Positions 28,576 through 57,184 of a stretch of DNA of 64,000 nt are shown piece by piece. Location: assembly GCF_000308635.1 (NCBI RefSeq), contig NZ_BAGD01000107.1:1-64000 (forward strand), written 5' to 3'. Made by a program: the position numbers and the translations under genes. The notes under the pieces were generated by a model, which worked only from the letters and a program-made list of their open reading frames with translations, was not told the origin of the DNA and searched no databases. This stretch comes from Nocardia otitidiscaviarum NBRC 14405 (GTDB lineage Bacteria; Actinomycetota; Actinomycetes; Mycobacteriales; Mycobacteriaceae). Each line of letters starts with the position of its first letter. The stretch's first letter is position 1.

Positions 28576-28620
28576 TTGACTTATCCGAATTCGTGCGACA
28601 CCATTGTCGACGTTCATGCA
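28576..28620 (+). promoter_or_regulatory. Probable promoter for the M-box transcript
   Basis: TTGACT at 28576-28581 would serve as a -35 element between the terminator and the riboswitch. The -10 is not clear: CACCAT lies 17 bases later and CATTGT 20 bases later, both poor. Placement is right, the exact start is uncertain. Confidence 0.3.
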
Positions 28621-28790
28621 CCTCGATAGGTGAGGCTCCTACGCGAACACAGGCCACTGATCTGACGACGTCGAGAGACGCCCAAGGTTAGGACAGGTCT
28701 TCCCGGATTAAGGGATGTACCCGAAGTGGCTTCCCGGCTCGATGCCGAGACACGTCGCGTAGTGCCGAAACTCTGACGAGAGGGGTGCTC
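28617..28790 (+). ncRNA. M-box (ykoK leader) magnesium riboswitch
   Basis: The conserved M-box elements appear in order. ATAGGTGAGGCTCCTA is the family hallmark (28626-28641), then GTCGAGAGACGCCCAAGG (about 28670-28687), TTAGGACAGG, GCTCGATGCCGAGAC (about 28737-28751) and GTGCCGAAACTCTGACGAG (28762-28780). The P1 stem pairs GCACCTC (28618-28624) with GAG...GGTGC near 28780-28788. M-box RNAs bind Mg2+ and switch off magnesium transporter genes when Mg2+ is plentiful; here the downstream genes are a small ORF and mgtA. A 7-bp hairpin CCAGGGA/TCCCTGG (28792-28809) follows but has no T-run, so control may be Rho-dependent or translational. Confidence 0.92.
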
Positions 28791-28984
28791 ACCAGGGAAA
28801 CGTCCCTGGCCCGCTCCCTGCTGTGCTTTCGATTCGGCGTCCCCGCACGCCTCGGCCGCAAGGAGGTGAGATCCGCAGGATGACACCCGGTGGAAGTCCG
28901 TATCCGTCTCGATCACTCTGCATTGTCTCGCCCGGTCGCGGCATTCCTTCGAACTGACCGTTCGGCGAATTCAGCGCATTCTCA

Positions 28985-29273: not shown

Positions 29274-29330
29274 GCGGCCACGCACCGACACCCCACAGTC
29301 CCGATGCGGCTACCGCGCGAGGAGTACCTC

Positions 29331-32039
29331 ATGACCATGTCCACTCCGCTATCCCTCCAGCGGCCGGAACCACCCACCCACCGTCCGTCCCGCCGGGAAC
29401 GCCGAGCCGCCGAGCTGGAGGACCGCACCCGCGCGGTCGGCGCGAAGCTGGTCGGCATCAGTGCCCGACCCGCGAAACAGGTGCTGCACGACCTGGATTC
29501 GGTGCGTGCGGGCCTCGACCACGCCGACGCCGATCAGCGGCTGGCGCAGTACGGCCCGAACAAGATCGCCCACGAATACGTTCCGCACTGGCTGGTGCAG
29601 CTGGTGCGGGCGTTCGGGAATCCGTTCATCCTGGTGCTGGCGGGCCTGGCCGTCGTGCTCTACCTGACCGGCGATGCCGAGGGCGTCATCACCATCGGCA
29701 TCATGATCACGATCAGCACGCTGATCCGGTTCTGGCAGGAGTTCCGTTCCAACCGCGCCGCCGAAGCGCTGACCCGGCTGGTCACCACCACAGCGGCGGT
29801 GGTGCGGCGCGACGCGGGCGCACCGCGCGGCCGTGCCCGGGAGATCCCCATGGCCGAGGTGGTGCCCGGCGATATCGTGCACCTGGCCGCCGGTGACCTG
29901 GTGCCCGCCGATATGCGGCTCATCGCCGCCAAGGACCTCATGGTCGCCCAGGCCGCCCTCACCGGTGAATCGCTGCCGGTGGAGAAGGCCGACACCACCA
30001 CCGGCGACACCCGGCGGCACACCCGCCCCGACCCCGCCGAGGCCGACAACCTGGTGCTGATGGGCACCTCCGTCACCTCCGGCACCGGTACCGGGGTGGT
30101 GGTCGCGACCGGTTCGGACACCTACTTCGGCTCCATGGCCGACATCATGGTCGGCGCGCATCCGGAGACCGCGTTCGACACCGGGGTGAAGCGGGTCGCC
30201 TATCTGCTCATCCGGTTCATGCTGGTCATGGTGCCCGTGGTGTTCGTCGTCAACGGCTGGAATCAGGGCGATTGGACCTCGGCGTTCCTGTTCGCGGTGG
30301 CCGTGGCGGTGGGCCTCACACCGGAGATGCTGCCGGTGGTGGTGACCGCCAATCTGGCCAAGGGCGCGGTCGCCATGAGCAAGCGCAAGGTCGTGGTCAA
30401 GCGGCTGAGCGCGATTCAGAATCTGGGCGGCATGGATGTGCTGTGCACCGACAAGACCGGCACCCTCACCGAGGACCGGGTCGTACTGGACCGATACCTG
30501 GACATGCACGGGCGGCCGAGCGACGAGGTGCTGCGGTTGGCGTATCTGAACAGCCACTTCCAGACCGGATTGCGCAATCTGCTGGACCGCGCCGTCATCG
30601 ACCGAATGGACGAGGCCGAGGAGGTCGTCGTCGACAGCCGCTATCGGCTCGCGGACGAGATCCCCTTCGATTTCGTGCGCCGCCGGATGTCCGTGGTGCT
30701 CAGCGACCGATTGGGCGGCCCCGCGGAGAACCAGCTCGTCTGCAAGGGGGCGGTGGAGGAGGTCGTCGCGCTGTGCCGGTTCGCACGCGACGGCGACCGC
30801 GAGATCGCCATGTCCCCCGAACTGCGCGAACGTGTGATCGACGTGGCCGAGCGGACCAATCGCGAGGGCCTGCGGGTGGTGGCCGTCGCCACCCGGGCGG
30901 TGCCGATTCGCGACCGCTACACGGCGACCGACGAGACCGAATTGACGCTGGTCGGCTTCCTCGCCTTCCTCGATCCGCCCAAGCAGGACGCGGCCGCGGC
31001 GCTGAAAGCCCTGGCGGACAACGGCGTCGAGGTGAAGGTGATCACCGGCGACAGCGAACTGGTGGCGGCGCGGGTGTGCGCGGGCGTCGGCCTCGCGGTG
31101 GGCGAACCGGTCACCGGTACCCGGCTCGAGCTGACCGATGACGCGGATCTGCCCGAATTGGTGGAACGCACCACGCTGTTCGCCAAGATCGACCCGGCGC
31201 AGAAGGCGCGCATCGTACGCACCCTGCACGCGCGCGGCCACACCGTCGGCTTCCTCGGCGACGGCATCAACGACGCGGCGGCGCTGCGTGAGGCCGATGT
31301 GGGCATCTCGGTGGACACCGCGGTCGATATCGCCAGGGAATCCGCGGACATCATCCTGCTGGAGAAGGACCTCATGGTGCTCGAACGCGGCGTCATCGAG
31401 GGCCGCCGCACCTTCGGCAACACCATGAAGTACATCAAGATGACCGCGTCGTCGAATTTCGGCAATGTGTTCTCGGTGCTGGTGGCCTCGGCGTTCCTGC
31501 CCTTCCAGCCCATGCTGGCGGTGCACCTGCTGGTGCAGAACCTGCTCTACGACATCTCACAGCTCAGCATTCCGTGGGATCGCATGGACGAGGAGTATCT
31601 GCGCAAGCCGCAGCAGTGGAACGCCCGGGATCTCGGCCGGTTCATGCTGTGCATCGGCCCGACCAGCTCGATCTTCGATATGAGCACCTTCGCGCTGATG
31701 TGGTTCGTGTTCCAGGCCAACAGTCCCGAACACCAGACGCTGTTCCAATCCGGCTGGTTCATCGAGGGGCTGCTCTCCCAGACCCTCATCGTGCATTTGA
31801 TCCGCACCCGGAAGCTCCCGTTCCTCCAGTCGCGGGCGGCCCTGCCGGTGCTGCTGACCACGGGCACGATCATGGCCGTCGGCATCTGGCTGCCCTTCTC
31901 GCCGCTGGCGGACGTCCTCCGGATGCAGGCCCTGCCGCTGGCGTATTTCCCCTGGCTGGTGCTGACGCTGCTGAGTTACTGCCTGGTGGCGCAGCTGGCG
32001 AAGACGCTGTACATCCGGAAGTTCGGCCGTTGGCTGTGA
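29331..32039 (+). CDS. mgtA: Magnesium-translocating P-type ATPase
   Basis: P-type IIIB ATPase that imports Mg2+ across the cytoplasmic membrane; 902 residues, the usual length. Motifs in order: LTGESLPVEK actuator loop (about 210-219), PEML in the fourth membrane helix region (about 331), the phosphorylated Asp374 in CTDKTGTLTEDRV, VITGDSELVAARVC, and GDGINDAAALREADVGISVD hinge motif. About ten membrane segments are present. The start ATG at 29331 has GAGGAG upstream and the N-terminal cytoplasmic tail is arginine-rich. Control by the M-box riboswitch fits magnesium starvation induction. Confidence 0.96.
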   Translation: MTMSTPLSLQRPEPPTHRPSRRERRAAELEDRTRAVGAKLVGISARPAKQVLHDLDSVRAGLDHADADQRLAQYGPNKIAHEYVPHWLVQLVRAFGNPFILVLAGLAVVLYLTGDAEGVITIGIMITISTLIRFWQEFRSNRAAEALTRLVTTTAAVVRRDAGAPRGRAREIPMAEVVPGDIVHLAAGDLVPADMRLIAAKDLMVAQAALTGESLPVEKADTTTGDTRRHTRPDPAEADNLVLMGTSVTSGTGTGVVVATGSDTYFGSMADIMVGAHPETAFDTGVKRVAYLLIRFMLVMVPVVFVVNGWNQGDWTSAFLFAVAVAVGLTPEMLPVVVTANLAKGAVAMSKRKVVVKRLSAIQNLGGMDVLCTDKTGTLTEDRVVLDRYLDMHGRPSDEVLRLAYLNSHFQTGLRNLLDRAVIDRMDEAEEVVVDSRYRLADEIPFDFVRRRMSVVLSDRLGGPAENQLVCKGAVEEVVALCRFARDGDREIAMSPELRERVIDVAERTNREGLRVVAVATRAVPIRDRYTATDETELTLVGFLAFLDPPKQDAAAALKALADNGVEVKVITGDSELVAARVCAGVGLAVGEPVTGTRLELTDDADLPELVERTTLFAKIDPAQKARIVRTLHARGHTVGFLGDGINDAAALREADVGISVDTAVDIARESADIILLEKDLMVLERGVIEGRRTFGNTMKYIKMTASSNFGNVFSVLVASAFLPFQPMLAVHLLVQNLLYDISQLSIPWDRMDEEYLRKPQQWNARDLGRFMLCIGPTSSIFDMSTFALMWFVFQANSPEHQTLFQSGWFIEGLLSQTLIVHLIRTRKLPFLQSRAALPVLLTTGTIMAVGIWLPFSPLADVLRMQALPLAYFPWLVLTLLSYCLVAQLAKTLYIRKFGRWL

Positions 32040-49369: not shown

Positions 49370-50026
49370 TCAGGGCTGCTCGACCAGGTCGATGGCAGCG
49401 GCGCGGATCTCGCCCGCGTCGCCGTGCCAGCCCAGCAGATGCAGGATGGCGTCGGGGATCAACCGCTCGGCGTAGGCGGGTGGCGCTCCTTCGTCGGAGC
49501 GGATATTGATCACCGATTCGACGAGTCGGAAGGGCAGCAGTTCGCTGCCGGGTGCGGCGTCGCCCGATTCCGACACCACGCGCGCCGCCAGTGCCTCGTA
49601 GTGGCGGCGCAGCTCGTCGCGGCGCTCCCGGAAGGCCGCGAACCGAGGCGATCGCAGTTCCGGCAGCAGGTACAGCGCCCCCAGATTCCATCGCGCCGCG
49701 CACAGCTGTCGCACGTCGAACCAGGCCAGCGCGTAGAGCCGCACCACTGCGGGCTCCGGCCGCCGCGCCAATCGGTCCGCGAGTTCCAATGCCGCCGTGA
49801 TGGTTTCGGCCAGCAGAGCGTCGAGGATGTCGTCCTTGGCGGCGAAGTGGTGGTACAGCGACGCCTGCCTGATCCCGACCGCGTCGGCGATACCCCGGGT
49901 GGAGGTGCTGCCGTAGCCGTTGGCGGTGAACAGCTCGGCGGCGGCGTCGAGGATCTCGGCGCGCGGCGTCGTGCCCTGTCGGCGGCGGGGCTCGAGGCGG
50001 GGACGCCCGGGTCCGATATTGGTCAC
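49370..50026 (-). CDS. TetR-family regulator, divergent from the SSS permease operon
   Basis: A 218-residue regulator. Its HTH reads AEILDAAAELFTANGYGSTS and GIADAVGIRQASLYHHFAAK. The C-terminal ligand domain is long and ends near RAAAIDLVEQP. It faces the nitrogen-scavenging operon across 258 bp that contain two palindromes (50063-50073 and 50078-50097), so it probably represses that operon and itself. GTG 50026 has a GAGG upstream. The effector could be guanidine, urea or an intermediate (inference). Confidence 0.86.
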   Translation of the reverse strand: MTNIGPGRPRLEPRRRQGTTPRAEILDAAAELFTANGYGSTSTRGIADAVGIRQASLYHHFAAKDDILDALLAETITAALELADRLARRPEPAVVRLYALAWFDVRQLCAARWNLGALYLLPELRSPRFAAFRERRDELRRHYEALAARVVSESGDAAPGSELLPFRLVESVINIRSDEGAPPAYAERLIPDAILHLLGWHGDAGEIRAAAIDLVEQP

Positions 50027-50062: not shown

Positions 50063-50097
50063 TCACCAGGTGAGAGGTTTCTGTCATTCGATAGAAA
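50063..50097. promoter_or_regulatory. Candidate TetR operators
   Basis: TCACC-A-GGTGA, a perfect inverted repeat at 50063-50073, and the imperfect 20-bp palindrome TTTCTGTCATTCGATAGAAA at 50078-50097. Both lie between the tetR gene and the permease operon. A related TTTCAGTCGATAGG word occurs near 50177-50190. Confidence 0.45.
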
Positions 50098-50284
50098 TAT
50101 GCGCAACGCAGAAGTTACCGGCGGCCACGAGACGGATACACCGCCGTCACCACCGATGCCATCGCACGGCGAAAACTTTCAGTCGATAGGTATTCGCCTC
50201 GATGAAGGACCCGCCGATGGCCGCCCGATCGCTCCCAGAGCCACCCCATCCGTCCTGCGCCCCGTCCACCGGAGGGGGCCGAGC

Positions 50285-51817
50285 ATGATCGTCACCGGTA
50301 TCGCGATCAGCGTGGTCGCCGTCATCGCCATCGGCCTGTTCGTGGCCCGCAAGGTGGACGGCGACAGCACCAACTTCCTGGTCGCCGGACGCTCCCTGGC
50401 ACTGCCCCTGGTGGCGGCCGGCCTGATGGGCCAGGCCGTCGATTCCAATGCGACCCTGGGCAATACCGACCTCACCAGTTCCCTGGGCTTCTGGGCCGGG
50501 GCCTCGCTGCCACTGGGGCTGGGCCTGTGCCTGCTCATCACCGGCATCTTCTTCGCCGCACCGATGAACCGCATGGGCCTGCTCACCCTGCCCGACTTCT
50601 TCCGCATCAAATACGGCCGCGGCATCGAGCTGACCTCGTCGCTGCTGATGATCTTCAGCTTCTGCATTCTGCTGGCGGGCAACCTGGTGGCGGGCGGCTA
50701 CATCTTCGAGCGGTTCCTCGGCATCCCCTACACCGCGGGCGTGCTGCTCATCGTGACCATCGTGCTGTCCTACACCGTGGTCGGCGGCATGTTCAGCGAC
50801 GCCTACACCGCGCTGGCACAGATGCTGATCACCATTTTCGGCTCGCTGGCCCTGCTCATCTGGGTCGGCTCCACCATGGGTATCACCATTCCGGAGGGCA
50901 TGGGCCCCTTCGACTTCGGCCAGCTGACGAACACCTCCGAAGGCGCGCCGATCAACTGGGCGACCCTGATCTCGCTGGGCATCGGCGATATCGTCGCCAT
51001 CGACTTCATGCAGCGCATCTTCTCGGCGCGGTCGCCGCAGATCGCCCGGCGGGCCTGCTTCGTCGCCGCCGCGGGCACCGCCGTCGTCGGCGTGCCGTAC
51101 GCCATTGTGGCCCTGTCCATCTCGGGCGTGGTCGGCGACGGCGACGGGCCAATCCTGCTGCGCCTGCTGGCCGACCAGGCTCCGGCCGGACTCGCCATCC
51201 TGGTGCTGTCGGCCATTGTCGCGGCCTCCTGTTCGACGGCGAACGGGGCCATCCTCGGCACCGCCTCGGTGGCCACCCGCAATGTGGCCGGTCGACGCCG
51301 GGCCACCGACGCGGCCGGACACGACACCCTGCTGCGCCATGTGCGCTTCACCATGATCCCGGTGGTCGCGGTGGCGGTGCTGTTCGCGGTGCAGGTGCCG
51401 CAGACCGGCATTCTGCTGACGCTCGCCTTCGATCTCATGCTGGCCGGACTGATCGTGCCGTTCGTGGCGGCGCACATCACCGATCGGGTGAGCAGCGCGG
51501 CGGCGGCCGCGTCCATCATCGTCGGCCTCGGCACCCGGCTGGTGCTGTTCGTGCTCACCCCGACCGTGTACGGCGCGGAGAACACGCTGTGGCATATCGA
51601 CAACAGTCTCATCACCGCGAGTTTCGACGGCTGGCCGACCTTCATCGCCTTCCTGGCGGCGCTGGTGACCTTCCTGGTAGCCCTGGCGGTCTTCCCAGCC
51701 CGCCGGGAGCCGGTTGCCGCGGCGACCGCACCGCATCCGGCAGACCCGCGACCGGCCGACTCGCCGCCGGTCCCGGCGGACGCGGCCGCGCAGCCCGCCA
51801 CGGTGCCGACGACATGA
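50285..51817 (+). CDS. Sodium:solute symporter (SSS) family permease
   Basis: A 510-residue permease with 13 or so hydrophobic helices. The SSS fold is recognisable in GRSLALPLVAAGLMGQAVDS, IKYGRGIELTSSLLMIFSF and VLSYTVVGGMFSDAYTALAQ. It imports a solute with Na+ at the cytoplasmic membrane. Its operon suggests guanidine, urea or a related nitrogen compound as substrate (inference). GGAGGGGG lies just before ATG 50285. The stop overlaps the next small ORF by four bases. The C-terminal tail is Pro- and Ala-rich. Confidence 0.86.
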   Translation: MIVTGIAISVVAVIAIGLFVARKVDGDSTNFLVAGRSLALPLVAAGLMGQAVDSNATLGNTDLTSSLGFWAGASLPLGLGLCLLITGIFFAAPMNRMGLLTLPDFFRIKYGRGIELTSSLLMIFSFCILLAGNLVAGGYIFERFLGIPYTAGVLLIVTIVLSYTVVGGMFSDAYTALAQMLITIFGSLALLIWVGSTMGITIPEGMGPFDFGQLTNTSEGAPINWATLISLGIGDIVAIDFMQRIFSARSPQIARRACFVAAAGTAVVGVPYAIVALSISGVVGDGDGPILLRLLADQAPAGLAILVLSAIVAASCSTANGAILGTASVATRNVAGRRRATDAAGHDTLLRHVRFTMIPVVAVAVLFAVQVPQTGILLTLAFDLMLAGLIVPFVAAHITDRVSSAAAAASIIVGLGTRLVLFVLTPTVYGAENTLWHIDNSLITASFDGWPTFIAFLAALVTFLVALAVFPARREPVAAATAPHPADPRPADSPPVPADAAAQPATVPTT

Positions 51818-51969
51818 GGCGCGTGAGCACGCCGGACAGCGCCCTGCCGGGCCGCCCCGCCCGCGCCGTCATCATCACCGCGCTGCTGGAGCGGCTGCTC
51901 GTGTGGGCGGTCCACCGGGCGTCGGGCACGCCGCCGTCGGAGCGGCGACATCCCAGACACACCAACTGA
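51814..51969 (+). CDS. Small ORF (51 aa) coupled to the permease
   Basis: ATG 51814 overlaps the permease TGA as ATGA, so translation is coupled. The 51-residue product has an amphipathic hydrophobic stretch (RAVIITALLERLLVWAVHRA) that could attach to the membrane. I know no family. It might be a small subunit of the transporter. A hairpin follows before the next gene. Confidence 0.5.
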   Translation: MRRVSTPDSALPGRPARAVIITALLERLLVWAVHRASGTPPSERRHPRHTN

Positions 51970-51973
51970 TTCC

Positions 51974-52002
51974 GCCCACCCCGGCTGTCGTCCGGGGTGG
52001 GC
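51974..52002 (+). terminator. Intercistronic hairpin inside the operon
   Basis: GCCCACCCCGG (51974-51984) pairs perfectly with CCGGGGTGGGC (51992-52002) around a CTGTCGT loop. No T-run follows. It lies between the permease part and the enzyme part, and may lower readthrough, protect mRNA ends or mark a processing site. Confidence 0.55.
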
Positions 52003-52031
52003 AGCCATCCCGACTTGCGAAGGGAACCGAT

Positions 52032-52784
52032 ATGACAGGCACCGCATCCACCACCGAGGCACGGGCACACGCCAGATCACAGGCGGCGAGCGCGGCCATC
52101 GCCGGACCCGACCTGCCGGAAGGGATCGACGGCAGGACAGTCACCTTCGCCGCGCGTATTCCACCGGGCGGATACGCCACGGCGGTGCTCGGCCGGGGCA
52201 CCCGCCTGCGACTGGCCGATCCGGCGGGCGCGGCCTGTGCGCACCTGTTCCTGCTGCGCGCCGAAGCACCTTGGGAGCGGCTGAATGTCGCGGATACGGT
52301 GAAGGTGCCGTGGCAGGCGTACCTGAGGGCCGGGCATCCCCTGCTGTCGGACCAGGGCCGGGTGCTGGCGACCGTCGTATCCGACAGCTCCGGCCACCAC
52401 GACACCCTGTGCGGACCGAATGACGCGGCGCGGCAGCAACTTCGCCTCGCGGCGGCCAAGCACGGCCTGTCCCCGCGCGATCTCGGCCCCACGGTGTCGT
52501 TCTTCCGGGGCGTGCGTGTGGAAGCGGACGGCGCGTTGACCGCCACCGGCGGCGCGGGCGCGGGCGCGGCCGTCGACCTGCTCGTCCATCTGCCGGTGAC
52601 GCTGTTGATCGCCGCCGCCGCGCATCCGCTGGACGACACCCCGGTCACCGACCTGGATGTCGTCGCCTGGTCGGCCCCCGACGAGCTGACCCGGGTCCAC
52701 AACCCCGACCCGGAATACCGGCGCGCGGTGGAGAACACCGAAACCGCCTGGCGCGCCGCACATCCACGGGAGGCGATCGCATGA
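52032..52784 (+). CDS. DUF1989 protein, urea amidolyase-associated protein 1 (CgdA/CgdB-like)
   Basis: A 250-residue DUF1989 protein of the UAAP1 type. Such proteins, paired with UAAP2, were shown to form a carboxyguanidine deiminase that turns carboxyguanidine into allophanate. Features: YATAVLGRGTRLRLADPAGA, DTVKVPWQAYLRAGHPLLSD, SDSSGHHDTLCGPND, and FFRGVRVEADGAL near the end. ATG 52032 has an AGGGAA upstream. Its stop overlaps a 24-codon ORF leading to the partner subunit. Confidence 0.82.
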   Translation: MTGTASTTEARAHARSQAASAAIAGPDLPEGIDGRTVTFAARIPPGGYATAVLGRGTRLRLADPAGAACAHLFLLRAEAPWERLNVADTVKVPWQAYLRAGHPLLSDQGRVLATVVSDSSGHHDTLCGPNDAARQQLRLAAAKHGLSPRDLGPTVSFFRGVRVEADGALTATGGAGAGAAVDLLVHLPVTLLIAAAAHPLDDTPVTDLDVVAWSAPDELTRVHNPDPEYRRAVENTETAWRAAHPREAIA

Positions 52785-52855
52785 GCGGCCGGGTGAGCAG
52801 CCGACTCGGCGCGACCACACAGCGCCCCGATCATGCGCGAAAGGACACAGCATGA
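52781..52855 (+). CDS. Possible 24-codon bridging ORF
   Basis: ATG 52781 overlaps the UAAP1 stop, and its own TGA (52853-52855) overlaps the UAAP2 ATG, so the frame joins both genes by ATGA-type coupling. The peptide (MSGRVSSRLGATTQRPDHAR... ) has no family. It probably carries the ribosome across the gap rather than making a functional product. UAAP2's own AAAGGA site lies within it. Confidence 0.4.
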   Translation: MSGRVSSRLGATTQRPDHARKDTA

Positions 52856-53469
52856 GCACCCTCGAACGCACCGTCGTCCTGGACGAGACCGTCCCCGCCC
52901 GCGTCGGCTGGTCCACGGTGGTCCGCGCCGGTGACCGGCTCGACATCGTCGACCTGCACGGCAATCAGGCGGTGGACTGCCTGCTGTACTCGGCGTCCGA
53001 TCACACCGAGCGCTACAGCGCCCAGGCCACCCTCGCCGCCCAGCGCAACATCTTCCTCACCACCGGCAGCGCCCTGCGCACCGATTCCGGCACCACGCTC
53101 ATGACCGTCGTCGCCGACGAGGTGGGCAATCACGACACCGTGGCGGGCGCCTGCTCCCAGGAATCAAATACACTGCGCTACGGCCACCACACCCGCCACC
53201 AGCACGCCTGCGTGGAGAACTTCCTCGCCGAGGGCATGAAGTGGGGGCTGGGCAAGCGCGACCTGGTCTCGAATATCAACTGGTTCATGAATGTGCCGGT
53301 GGAGGCCGACGGCACGCTGGGCATCGTGGACGGGCTCTCCGCGCCCGGGAAGAAGATCAGCCTGCGCGCCGAGATCGACACCCTGGTGCTGGTCTCGAAC
53401 TGCCCGCAGATCAACAACCCCTGCAATGGTTTCGACCCCACCCCGGTGCGCATGGTGGTGAGCCGATGA
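52852..53469 (+). CDS. DUF1989 protein, urea amidolyase-associated protein 2 (CgdA/CgdB-like)
   Basis: A 205-residue DUF1989 protein, partner of UAAP1. It contains [40 protein letters not shown] and [20 protein letters not shown] with clustered histidines and cysteine that could bind metal. The last part is [20 protein letters not shown], a family hallmark. With UAAP1 it probably deiminates carboxyguanidine to allophanate. AAAGGA precedes the ATG. Its stop overlaps the next gene by ATGA. Confidence 0.85.
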
Positions 53470-55574
53470 CGGCGGCGGTGACCCACACGACGGCCGCACC
53501 GGCCGCATCCGGTCACCCAGCCGAAACGGCGGCATCCGGTCGCCGGGCCGAAGCGGCGGATTCCTCACCGGTACAGCCGGATTCGTTCATCCCGGGTGCC
53601 GCGACGGTGCTGCGCCCCGGCATGCAGTCCACGGTGCAGGACTGGCCGGGGCGGGTGGGCTACTGGCACGTGGGCGTACCGCCTTCGGGCCCCATGGACG
53701 ATCTGTCGTTCCGCCTGGGCAACCGGGCACTGGGCAATCCCGAGGGTGCGGCCGGACTGGAATGCACACTCGGCGGCCCCGCTCTGCGCTTCGACGCACC
53801 GACCCGAGTGTGCATCACCGGTGCACCGGTGCCGGTGACGGTGAACGGCCAACCGGTCCGGCAGTGGCGCAGCATCCGGGTGCCCGCCGGAGGAGTCCTG
53901 GACATCGGTGCGGTGCGCGGGCCCGGCATGCGCAGCTATCTACTCGTCGCGGGCGGCATCCAGGCGCCCGAATACCTCGGCAGCCGTGCGACCTTCACCC
54001 TCGGCAAGTTCGGCGGACCGCGCGGCCGCGCGCTCGCGGCCGGTGATGTGCTCACCTTCGGCGCACCGACCGGCCGCGGGAGCGCGGGCGTGCCGGGCGA
54101 CGAACAGCCGGTGCTCACCCGCCGCTGGGAACTCGCGGTCACCGAGGGGCCGCACGGTGCGCCGGAGTTCTTCACCCGCGCCGATATCGACGCCATTGTC
54201 GGCACCGACTACGAGGTGCATTTCAACTCCGACCGCACCGGCGTGCGCCTCATCGGCCCCAAGCCGCAATGGGCGCGTCTGGACGGCGGTGAGGCCGGGC
54301 TGCATCCGTCCAACATCCACGACACCGCGTACTCCGTCGGCGCCCTGGATTTCACGGGCGACACCCCGATCCTGCTCGGCCCCGACGGCCCGAGCCTGGG
54401 CGGCTTCGTCTGCCCGGTGACCGTGGTGGCCGCCGACCGCTGGAAGCTGGGCCAGCTCACCCCGGGCGACACCGTGCGCTTCGTTCCGGTACGCGCCGAC
54501 CGGGCCGCCTCGCTGCACGCGATCGGGCCGGGCCGCCGGGCCGACTGGCCCATGGTGCTCTCCGGCGGCGGCGACGGCGATGACGGCGTCCTGGCTCGGC
54601 GGGAGAGCGAGGACGGCACCGCCATCACCTACCGGCGCGCCGGAAACGACGGCGTACTCATCGAATACGGCGAGATGACCCTGGATCTCGGGCTGCGGGC
54701 GCGGGTGCACGCCCTGCACGAACACCTGCTCGAGCGCGCCGAACCCGGCATCACCGAACTCACCCCGGGCATTCGCTCCCTCCAGGTGCGTACCGACCCG
54801 GACCGGCTGCCCACGGCCGCGCTGCTGGACCTGCTCGGCGAGGCCCAGGCGGTGCTGCCGGCCGCCGAGGAACTCGTGGTGTCCAGCCGCACCGTGCACA
54901 TGCCGCTGTCCTGGGACGATCCCGCCACCCGGGAGGCCATCACCCGGTACATGCACGGCGTGCGCGCCGACGCGCCCTGGTGCCCGTGGAATATCGAATT
55001 CATCCGGCGCATGAACGGATTGGCGTCGGTGGACGAGGTTTTCGATACGGTCTTCGCGGCGGAGTATCTGGTGCTCGGCCTGGGTGACGTGTATCTGGGC
55101 GCGCCCGTGGCCACCCCGACCGATCCGCGTCACCGCCTGGTCACCACCAAATACAACCCCGCCCGCACCTGGACACCGGAGAACGCCGTCGGCATCGGCG
55201 GTGCCTACCTGTGTGTCTACGGCATGGAGGGGCCGGGCGGCTACCAGTTCGTCGGCCGCACCACGCAGGTGTGGAATCACGCCTCGTCCGGTATCGGCGA
55301 GGAGCCCTGGCTGCTGCGCTTCTTCGACCGCATTCGCTGGTATCCGGTCTCGGCGGCGGAACTGCTGGACCTGCGCGCGGATTTCGCGGCCGGACGCGGA
55401 GCGCTGCGCACCGAAGCGGGCGAGTTCCGGCTCGCCGACCATCGCGCCTTCCTGGACGAGAACGCCGACTCCATCGCGGATTTCCGGGCGCGTCAGGCGG
55501 AGGCGTTCGCGGCCGAACGCGAATCGTGGCGTGCGGCGGGAGAATTCGCGGAGACGAAGGAGACCACGACATGA
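53466..55574 (+). CDS. Carboxyltransferase-only urea/guanidine carboxylase relative (no biotin carboxylase or carrier domain)
   Basis: A 702-residue protein that matches only the carboxyltransferase part of urea or guanidine carboxylase (KipA-like AHS2 followed by KipI-like AHS1). AHS2 begins near residue 42 with [20 protein letters not shown] and [23 protein letters not shown]1 begins near residue 395 with [20 protein letters not shown]. The usual N-terminal biotin carboxylase and C-terminal biotin-attachment domain (an MKM motif) are absent, and the frame is not broken at either end: the start overlaps UAAP2 and the end overlaps the hydrolase. A short Ala/Thr-rich N-terminal tail replaces the BC domain. 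The missing parts may come from a separate carboxylase subunit. Confidence 0.82.
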
Positions 55575-57184
55575 CGGTGTGGATTCGACGGCGTACCGAG
55601 GTCGAGATCGCCGCCGACCCCGTGCCGGAGGGCCCGCTGCGCGGGCTGCGGCTGGCGGTCAAGGACAATGTCGATGTCGCCGGACTGCCCACCACGGCGG
55701 GCTGCCCCGACTTCGCCTACACGCCCGCCGCCGACGCACCCGCGGTCGCGGCCCTGCGGGCGGCCGGTGCGGTGGTGGTCGGCAAGACCAATCTCGATCA
55801 ATTCGCCACCGGGCTGGTCGGCACCCGCTCCCCCTACGGCGCGGTGCCCAATGCGCTGCGGCCCGAATTCATCTCGGGCGGTTCGAGTTCCGGCTCGGCG
55901 GTGGCCGTGGCCCGAGGTGAGGCGGATATCGCCGTCGGCACCGATACCGCGGGCTCCGGCCGGATTCCCGCCGCGCTCAACGGGATCGTCGGCATCAAAC
56001 CGACCGTGGGCGTGGTGTCCACCGTGGGCGTGGTGCCCGCCTGCCGCTCCTACGATTGCGTGACCGTCTTCGCCGCCGATCTGGACCTGGCGAATCGCGC
56101 CATGGCGGTGATGGCGGCCGATGCACCGGACCGGCCCTGGCCCAGCGATATCCGGCTGGCCGCGCCGCCCGCGCCCGTGGTCGCGGTCTTCAGCGAGCTG
56201 CCGGAACTCGACGAGGTGTGGCTGGCGGCCTTCGCACGCACGGTCGCGGCGCTGCGGGAGCGCGGGGTCACCATTGTCGAGATCGATCCGGCCCCGTTCC
56301 TGGCCGCAGCCCGCCTGCTGTACGACGGTGCGCTGGTGGCCGAAAGATACTCCGCTGTCGGAGAATTCGTGGACACGCACCCCGAGTCGACCGATCCGAC
56401 GGTGGGCTCCATCATTCGCGCCGCCCGCGACCTGCCCGCCCACCGGCTGGTTACCGACCTGGCCGAACTGGAGCGGCTGCGCGGGCTCGCCATGGCGAGT
56501 ATGGCCGGAGCCGATGCCCTGCTCATCCCCACCGCGCCCGACCATCCCAGTATCGCGGAGGTGGCCGCCGACCCGGTCGGCGTGAACTCCCGGCTCGGCA
56601 CGTACACCAACTTCTGCAATCTGTTCGACCTGTGCGCGGTGGCCGTTCCGGCCGGGACGGCGGGCGCGGCCCAGTTCGGCGTATCGGTGGTGGCGCGCGC
56701 CTTCGAGGACGCGGTGGCCCTGGATATCGCCGCCCTGGTGCTGAACCGGCGGCCGCCCGAATCCGCCTGGCCGCTGGCGACCGCGGCCAGCACCGAACTC
56801 GTGGTGTTCGGCGCGCACCTGCGCGGTCAGCCGCTCGCATTCCAGCTCGACGCTCTCGGTGCGCGCTGGGCCGGACCGGTGCGGACCGCCCCGCGCTATC
56901 GACTGGCCGCCCTGGACACCACCCCGCCCAAGCCCGGGGTGACCCGCCTGCCCGAGGGCGAGGCGGGGGTCGCGGTGGCGGGGGAACGGTGGTTGCTCGC
57001 TCCCGCCGCCCTGGGCCGTTTTCTGAGCGCCCTGCCCGCACCCATGCAGCTCGGCGCGGTGGAACTCGAGGACGGTTCCTGGACAACCGGTTTCGGCTGT
57101 GACGCGGCGGCCGCGGCCGACGGCAAGGACATCAGCGAGTACGGGGACTGGCGCGTGGCCCTGCGCGCGGGCGCGGTCGGCTGA
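55571..57184 (+). CDS. atzF: Allophanate hydrolase
   Basis: A 537-residue amidase-signature enzyme that hydrolyses allophanate to ammonia and CO2. The Ser-cisSer-Lys triad is visible: Lys31 in [11 protein letters not shown], cis-Ser near 106 in [12 protein letters not shown], and the nucleophile Ser129 in DTAGSGRIP. The C-terminal domain typical of AtzF follows (about 410-537). ATG 55571 overlaps the carboxyltransferase stop. It ends a coupled series UAAP1, UAAP2, carboxyltransferase, hydrolase. Confidence 0.92.

Follow-up and report, generated by a model that had tools for sequence, protein, structure and literature searches.

A guanidine-type carboxylase reduced to its carboxyltransferase core in a predicted AmtR-controlled operon of Nocardia otitidiscaviarum

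Introduction

Bacterial guanidine carboxylases of the TIGR02712 family (Asp1330 type) carry biotin carboxylase (BC), carboxyltransferase (CT) and biotin carboxyl carrier (BCCP) domains in one chain and are encoded together with UAAP1, UAAP2 and allophanate hydrolase (AH) genes. In an operon of Nocardia otitidiscaviarum NBRC 14405 the corresponding protein resembles these enzymes in its CT domain, in Asp1330 and Asp1584 and in its UAAP1/UAAP2 and AH neighbours, but BC and BCCP are missing from both the chain and the operon. The operon lies in a stretch of 64,000 nucleotides, here called the window (positions 1-64000 of the 72,153-bp contig C175); the genome, G000, comprises 7.48 Mb in 280 contigs and is rated 100% complete.

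According to the accessible parts of the literature, Asp at the position of K. lactis residue 1584 occurs in all enzymes of this kind, Asp at 1330 marks the guanidine enzymes (PMC11410670, 2024) and Asn at 1330 the urea enzymes (PMC12186494); in both papers a UAAP1/UAAP2-type pair is a carboxyguanidine deiminase (CgdAB). The available portions of two papers on mycobacterial acyl-CoA carboxylases describe the arrangement that we propose for the window, in which a BC-BCCP chain serves a distinct CT subunit; there the chain AccA3 is common to the AccD4, AccD5 and AccD6 complexes (PMC11001197; PMC4347857, for AccD6 in one direction only). The CT of these complexes is of the acyl-CoA type, whereas that of the window is of the urea/guanidine type, for which these portions describe no use of such a chain. 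A third comparison is provided by PxpB/PxpC (5-oxoprolinase), which act with 5-oxoproline by an ATP-activation mechanism and have no biotin domain. The accessible part of PMC3199775 notes pairs of stand-alone CT-like genes whose function is unknown; we take them to be of the Pxp type.

The window operon is the published AmtR regulon. In the accessible text of the 2013 paper (PMC4222082) the regulon comprises msmeg_2184-2189 of M. smegmatis and nfa22180-22230 of N. farcinica, including nfa22230, nfa22220, nfa22190 and nfa22180. The operon is raised under nitrogen starvation via GlnR, binding of AmtR is not affected by urea or amino acids, amtR and glnR mutants of M. smegmatis exist, and the functions of the unknown frames, the carboxylase and the amidase are called 'highly speculative'. 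The enzyme is named urea carboxylase, and this text neither mentions missing domains nor names guanidine, also not among the effectors (PMC4222082). The published regulon and the window share the operon and the AmtR-type repressor, and we found the CT-only form at the N. farcinica (L205), R. wratislaviensis (L208) and R. opacus (L209) loci. The published operon has an amino-acid permease in place of the SSS permease of the window. We found no description of a urea or guanidine carboxylase without BC and BCCP in the open PubMed Central literature, subscription papers being outside the scope of this search.

Results and Discussion

The window protein consists of the CT core

The 702-aa protein encoded at 53466..55574 is the CT core only of a urea/guanidine carboxylase. 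The domain search proposed in an initial annotation, which had reported the loss of both biotin domains, detected the Pfam domains CT_A_B and CT_C_D and nothing else. The match to TIGR02712 covers positions 448-1118 of 1201 (966 bits, under the cut-off of 1303.85); positions 1-447 and 1119-1201 are unmatched, so that the N-terminal BC and the C-terminal BCCP are missing while the CT boundaries are complete. Among proteins of solved structure it is most similar to 3va7 from K. lactis and to the urea amidolyase 5i8i (E about 1e-166). The predicted structure was too poor for use (mean pLDDT 54.8) and the identity of the fold was taken from these sequence matches.

Two ways of overlooking the biotin domains had been named, a BC/BCCP gene directly adjacent to the operon and an in-frame extension hidden by a sequencing error. 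Whole-genome searches (E 0.001) gave no BC or BCCP match on contig C175. In a six-frame search the 879-aa stop-to-stop frame matched model positions 448-1119 only, and the CT-only form recurs at 112 loci. Another possible donor, a full-length urea carboxylase encoded outside the window, was rejected, since G000 contains no full-length urea or guanidine carboxylase at all. The features of the locus are as follows.

49370..50026, minus strand: AmtR-type TetR repressor gene, divergent from the operon; best solved-structure match 5e57
50081..50094, no strand: AmtR-box-like site 1, CTGT-N6-ATAG, one mismatch to the assumed consensus
50176..50189, no strand: AmtR-box-like site 2, CTTT-N6-ATAG, 95 bp from site 1, one mismatch to the assumed consensus
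50285..51817, plus strand: SSS-family permease (PF00474)
51814..51969, plus strand: 51-aa ORF, no Pfam or family-model match
52032..52784, plus strand: UAAP1 (DUF1989), TIGR03425 216.4 bits, cut-off 205.95
52781-52855: 24-codon ORF bridging UAAP1 and UAAP2, ATGA at each end
52852..53469, plus strand: UAAP2 (DUF1989), partner subunit of UAAP1, TIGR03424 334 bits, cut-off 284.7
53466..55574, plus strand: CT-only carboxylase of predicted guanidine type, 702 aa, Asp295 and Asp541 equivalent to K. lactis 1330 and 1584, no BC or BCCP
55571..57184, plus strand: AH, Amidase and AH_C domains, TIGR02713 622.8 bits, cut-off 511.05

Re-examination of the window ORFs agreed with the gene identities, the order and the ATGA overlaps given initially, which join permease and 51-aa ORF (51814), UAAP2 and CT (53466), and CT and AH (55571). 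The 24-codon ORF had not been listed, and the 51-aa ORF is not conserved. Among the compared Nocardia loci both short ORFs have a match in the nearest relative alone (L070, L158); they were therefore rejected as parts of the system and not counted as its genes.

Guanidine as the predicted substrate

The residues Asp295 (TIGR02712 position 701) and Asp541 (TIGR02712 position 956) give the window protein the guanidine signature, and the published rule thus supports its assignment to the guanidine type. An alignment of 151 distinct sequences contained 111 rows of the clade to which the window protein belongs (CT1), one duplicate sequence having been dropped from its 112 loci. Position 1330 is Asp in all 111 rows and in 20/20 full-length enzymes whose stretch contains UAAP genes, and Asn in 7/7 full-length enzymes whose stretch does not; the presence or absence of these genes in the fetched stretch was also the criterion by which a full-length enzyme was assigned to the guanidine or the urea type. 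UAAP1, UAAP2 and AH of the window all score over their family cut-offs.

A second CT-only clade, CT2, comprises ten loci (L118-L127). They belong to other families of the order, and their CT proteins share 51-53% identity with that of the window. UAAP-type and AH genes are present at these loci, an APC permease at seven of them, and no BC or BCCP was detected in the stretches. The guanidine-I riboswitch model exceeded the gathering score in 8/58 genomes, all eight of the CT2 clade; this search used stricter filters, with which weak matches are lost. Seven of the ten CT2 loci have a riboswitch over this score on the strand of the CT gene, 1.3-2.9 kb upstream of it. In G197 a match of 50.6 bits (threshold 63 bits) is located about 3.1 kb upstream of the CT gene, the riboswitches of G324 are on other contigs, and G292 is without one. 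Matches under the threshold were obtained in six more genomes, in no case near the CT gene. The riboswitches tie the CT-only arrangement to guanidine by independent evidence.

In the accessible parts of the papers on AmtR and GlnR the enzyme is named urea carboxylase or urea amidolyase (PMC4222082, PMC3662644, PMC4617892), and the operon might accordingly degrade urea, with the window protein as the CT of a urea carboxylase. We consider this very unlikely, because the protein has Asp and not the Asn of urea carboxylases at the specificity position, all seven full-length sequences with Asn come from stretches without UAAP genes, UAAP1 and UAAP2 are neighbours in the window, and the parallel CT-only clade has guanidine-I riboswitches. 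The proposal that the operon works on guanidine is thus supported by the Asp1330 signature, the UAAP pair and these riboswitches. Two observations weigh against it: no guanidine riboswitch, a frequent though not obligatory control element of guanidine carboxylase genes, was detected in the window at the Rfam gathering score and no guanidine-I match in genome G000, AmtR-type sites being present instead, and CT2 has Met at the 1330 position in 10/10 sequences despite its riboswitches.

The published rule would not class the CT2 enzymes as guanidine carboxylases. In CT3, a small CT-only set from elsewhere in the phylum, the 1330 position is Ile in two sequences and Ala in one. The CT-only gene of L254 (8802-10946) has Glu in place of Asp1584; its neighbours, named by eye, are presumably rplL-like and rpoB-like.

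Proposed pathway

We propose that the operon would import guanidine and break it down for nitrogen, with a guanidine carboxylase reduced to its CT subunit. A separate biotin carboxylase would load a carrier with the use of ATP, and the CT protein would make carboxyguanidine with the carboxyl group of carboxybiotin bound to this separate protein. UAAP1/UAAP2 would then deiminate carboxyguanidine to allophanate, from which AH would release ammonia. We regard this explanation, a CT-only guanidine carboxylase served by a carboxybiotin donor in trans, as likely. The SSS permease is the probable guanidine importer; the same position is occupied by an APC-family permease in most relatives. If the explanation is correct, Nocardia, Rhodococcus and many mycobacteria carboxylate guanidine with a multi-subunit enzyme that receives its carboxybiotin from another pathway. 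It would also explain why no clear function could be assigned to the 'urea carboxylase' operon in the accessible text of the 2013 paper (PMC4222082), since neither a urea substrate nor a one-chain enzyme would then apply.

An SSS permease is found as well at L071, L080, L193, L197 and L203, and in some of the operons that encode full-length guanidine enzymes (L138, L139, L144, L150, L151).

The CT-only form is widespread and conserved

A match to the CT protein at 1e-60 was obtained in 139/148 Nocardia genomes. In 129/148, G000 included, the best match has E = 0, and among the matches listed these rows are 73-90% identical (the window itself aside), with 57-61% identity to the window protein for full-length copies. 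G129, one of the other ten of the 139 genomes, has a partial copy at 83%, and most of the rest score like full-length copies. All 16 opened Nocardia loci are CT-only: at none of them does the CT gene have a BC or BCCP neighbour. In a scan of named genomes, covering the best 80 of 572 relatives, the nearest match was Nocardia sp. CC227C (90%), and the genera were Nocardia, Skermania, Prescottella, Rhodococcus, Rhodococcoides, Mycolicibacterium and Mycobacterium.

The 112 CT1 loci were classified; the same strain may appear twice among named and other loci, so that they represent fewer than 112 genomes, and the stretches include short ones of as little as 4.7 kb. A BC/BCCP gene inside the operon was found at none of them (0/112). 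Anywhere in the stretch it was found at 2/112 (L132, L140), in both cases a separate pyruvate-carboxylase-like gene of 1132-1134 aa beyond the repressor gene. An adjacent BC/BCCP gene was consequently rejected as donor, there being none on C175 either. The CT-only form reported for the window is therefore real but not peculiar to it, being found across Nocardia, Rhodococcus and mycobacteria.

The dN/dS values of the CT gene between the window and three relatives are 0.167, 0.099 and 0.155, which indicates purifying selection. The loss of two domains and the finding that AH was unseen in the fetched stretch at 63/112 CT1 loci might suggest that the gene is decaying or is a remnant without catalytic function. 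We regard a remnant as highly improbable in view of the dN/dS of 0.10-0.17, the retention of columns invariant in full-length enzymes (see below) and the presence of the gene in most of the genus.

Six loci of genus g2 of the same family, mycobacterial by tree position, are minimal UAAP1-UAAP2-CT loci without a permease match in the stretch (L129, L130, L132, L135, L140, L142). Their six genomes contain no AH at 1e-80, and allophanate may therefore end as urea in these organisms. In the nearest relative (L070, genome G099) the AH beside CT is reduced to a 47-codon match; a complete AH elsewhere in G099 adjoins a 1206-aa frame with BC and BCCP.

The biotin domains were probably lost at least twice

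In a tree of 73 rows, which included 33 of the 111 CT1 rows, CT1 forms one clade (SH-aLRT 99) within the full-length guanidine carboxylases, near full-length copies of the same family and order. This position agrees with the initial description of the domains as lost. CT2 (SH-aLRT 100) is placed elsewhere and joined to two CT3 rows, a join for which the program warned of possible long-branch attraction. A single origin of all CT-only rows was rejected (p-AU 0.011), as was one of CT1 and CT2 alone (0.0099), in a tree of 54 rows with 19/111 CT1 rows, from which L254, L281, L283, L284 and L286 were omitted because of long branches. Both trees were quick searches without bootstrap on automatic alignments. 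Since CT1 is nested among full-length enzymes and a single CT-only origin is rejected, BC and BCCP were probably lost from full-length enzymes at least twice, and if the proposed pathway is correct, the same dependency on foreign carboxybiotin arose at least twice.

Of the 193 columns that are invariant in full-length enzymes, CT1 conserves 184 at over 90%; the remaining nine retain the same commonest residue, once at only 42%. No class-defining substitution (90%/90%) separates CT1 from the full-length guanidine enzymes. This conservation suggests that whatever binds carboxybiotin is probably still present, and the lack of a fixed difference gives no sign of changed chemistry. CT2 does not keep 26 of the 193 columns; L254 was omitted from the column counts of CT3.

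At L150 a full-length guanidine-type enzyme has its BCCP match in a separate frame, either by a frameshift or by a natural split.

A resident acyl-CoA carboxylase subunit as candidate donor

The initial annotation had left a choice between a borrowed carboxyl donor and new chemistry. This alternative stands, and the absence of fixed CT1 differences favours the borrowed donor; carboxybiotin is probably supplied in trans. The suggested genome search for separate BC-BCCP subunits revealed six BC genes in G000, on C168, C159, C242 (599 aa), C185, C9 (1852 aa) and C212 (1059 aa). From size and neighbours we take the gene on C168 to be AccA1/MccA-like, that on C159 a paralogue, that on C242 AccA3-like and that on C185 pyruvate-carboxylase-like. 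The C168 gene adjoins carboxyltransferase-like and acyl-CoA-dehydrogenase-like genes.

Donors were counted in 48 chosen genomes. An AccA3-type alpha subunit is present in 32/32 CT1 genomes tested (81-100% identical), which is a co-occurrence only. An AccA1-type subunit is likewise present in 32/32 (62-100%), with partial matches only in G019, G038, G094, G110 and G123. The CT2 genomes G175 (100% complete) and G384 (99%) have two BC genes each, of the AccA3 and AccA1 type, and in addition a BC-N-terminal-like piece beside the small biotin protein TB7.3. We tentatively place a resident acyl-CoA carboxylase alpha subunit of the AccA3 type first among possible donors, because it is present in all CT1 genomes tested and there is precedent for its serving several CT subunits; the AccA1/MccA type ranks second. 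If AccA3 is the donor, nitrogen scavenging and the synthesis of fatty and mycolic acids would draw on one carboxybiotin pool.

Several results weigh against this assignment. None of the candidate donor genes was detected in all CT-only genomes: the AccA3 type is present in 7/10 CT2 genomes (not in G197, G282 and G324) and the AccA1 type also in 7/10 (not in G197, G292 and G324). The genomes G282, G292 and G324 are incomplete. In the complete chromosome of G197 neither type was found, its two BCs being part of a 1858-aa frame and a stand-alone AccC, which adjoins pxpA-pxpB-pxpC in an allantoin cluster. Mean BCCP similarity scores of 110.8 for AccA3, 107.2 for the C159 paralogue and 102.4 for AccA1 single out no donor, and the BC part most similar to urea carboxylase is that of AccA1 (546 bits versus 477 for AccA3). 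No AmtR-type site was detected before the candidate donor genes; a one-mismatch match at L059 lies inside the gene.

Another carrier would be the orphan TB7.3, which we take to be of the Rv3221c type and which any resident BC would load. In 45/56 genomes, G000 and G197 among them, a copy in a small frame (75-333 aa) exceeds the family cut-off, and in 6/8 CT2/CT3 genomes no other carrier matches the urea carboxylase model as well as TB7.3. It is nevertheless an unlikely carrier, being over the cut-off in none of the CT-only genomes G336, G381, G199, G206, G248, G282, G324 and G537 (some incomplete) and present in G180, G189 and G198, which have no CT match at the limit used. As a universal carrier TB7.3 was rejected, since it is missing from several CT-only genomes.

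The lack of a universal donor gene and the few possible donors in G197 could also indicate that biotin is not needed by the CT-only protein, which might, for instance, activate bicarbonate or guanidine with ATP in the manner of PxpB/PxpC. These proteins have the same two CT subdomains and no biotin domains in the chain, and they match the window protein weakly. The window protein is, however, far under the PxpC and PxpB cut-offs (121.2/500 and 36.1/145.55), no pxpA is found among the operon genes, CT1 has no fixed difference from the full-length guanidine enzymes, and at least one BC match was found in every genome inventoried (G000 and sets of five and eight), that of G537 being partial at a contig end. 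We hold such a mechanism to be quite improbable. It is improbable to the same degree that the CT-only enzymes have dropped biotin and carboxylate guanidine with an activated carboxylate formed in the CT site, as a biotin-free carboxylase that arose at least twice from biotin-dependent enzymes; this reading, too, draws on the lack of a universal donor gene. A trans donor of carboxybiotin thus remains our preferred explanation.

In the complete genome of L258 an allantoinase-allantoicase-pxpA-pxpB-pxpC-accC cluster is present with no accB seen in it; the gene names were assigned partly by eye and are presumptive. Orphan biotin carriers of the TB7.3 type occur at G000:C181:15909-16118 (L067) and at L270-L272, with neighbours that by eye we take to be anti-sigma-like, kinase-like or WhiB-like. 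The 1059-aa BC-containing carboxylase on C212 (L066) is flanked by apparent paralogues of window genes downstream of the operon, which by eye resemble the epoxide-hydrolase-like and WYL-like genes of the window.

Predicted AmtR-type control

Compared with solved structures, the TetR protein encoded divergently from the operon matches 5e57 ('Transcription regulator AmtR') best, with 232 bits and E 4.4e-68; the next match is 5dy1 with 134 bits. A related TetR gene is located beside the operon in the 16 opened Nocardia CT-only loci. We assume CTAT-N6-ATAG as the AmtR consensus. Sites 1 and 2 are two of the three sites with at most one mismatch to it in the 64-kb window. The TetR gene was found at 59/63 Nocardia loci, and a site within 300 bp of its start in 57/59, versus 2.1 expected from simple shuffles; this test was made after an inverted repeat had been seen in the window. 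The operon is thus predicted to be under AmtR-type control.

Elsewhere in the window an M-box magnesium riboswitch (28615-28791, 134 bits) lies upstream of a P-type-ATPase-like ORF (29304-32039).

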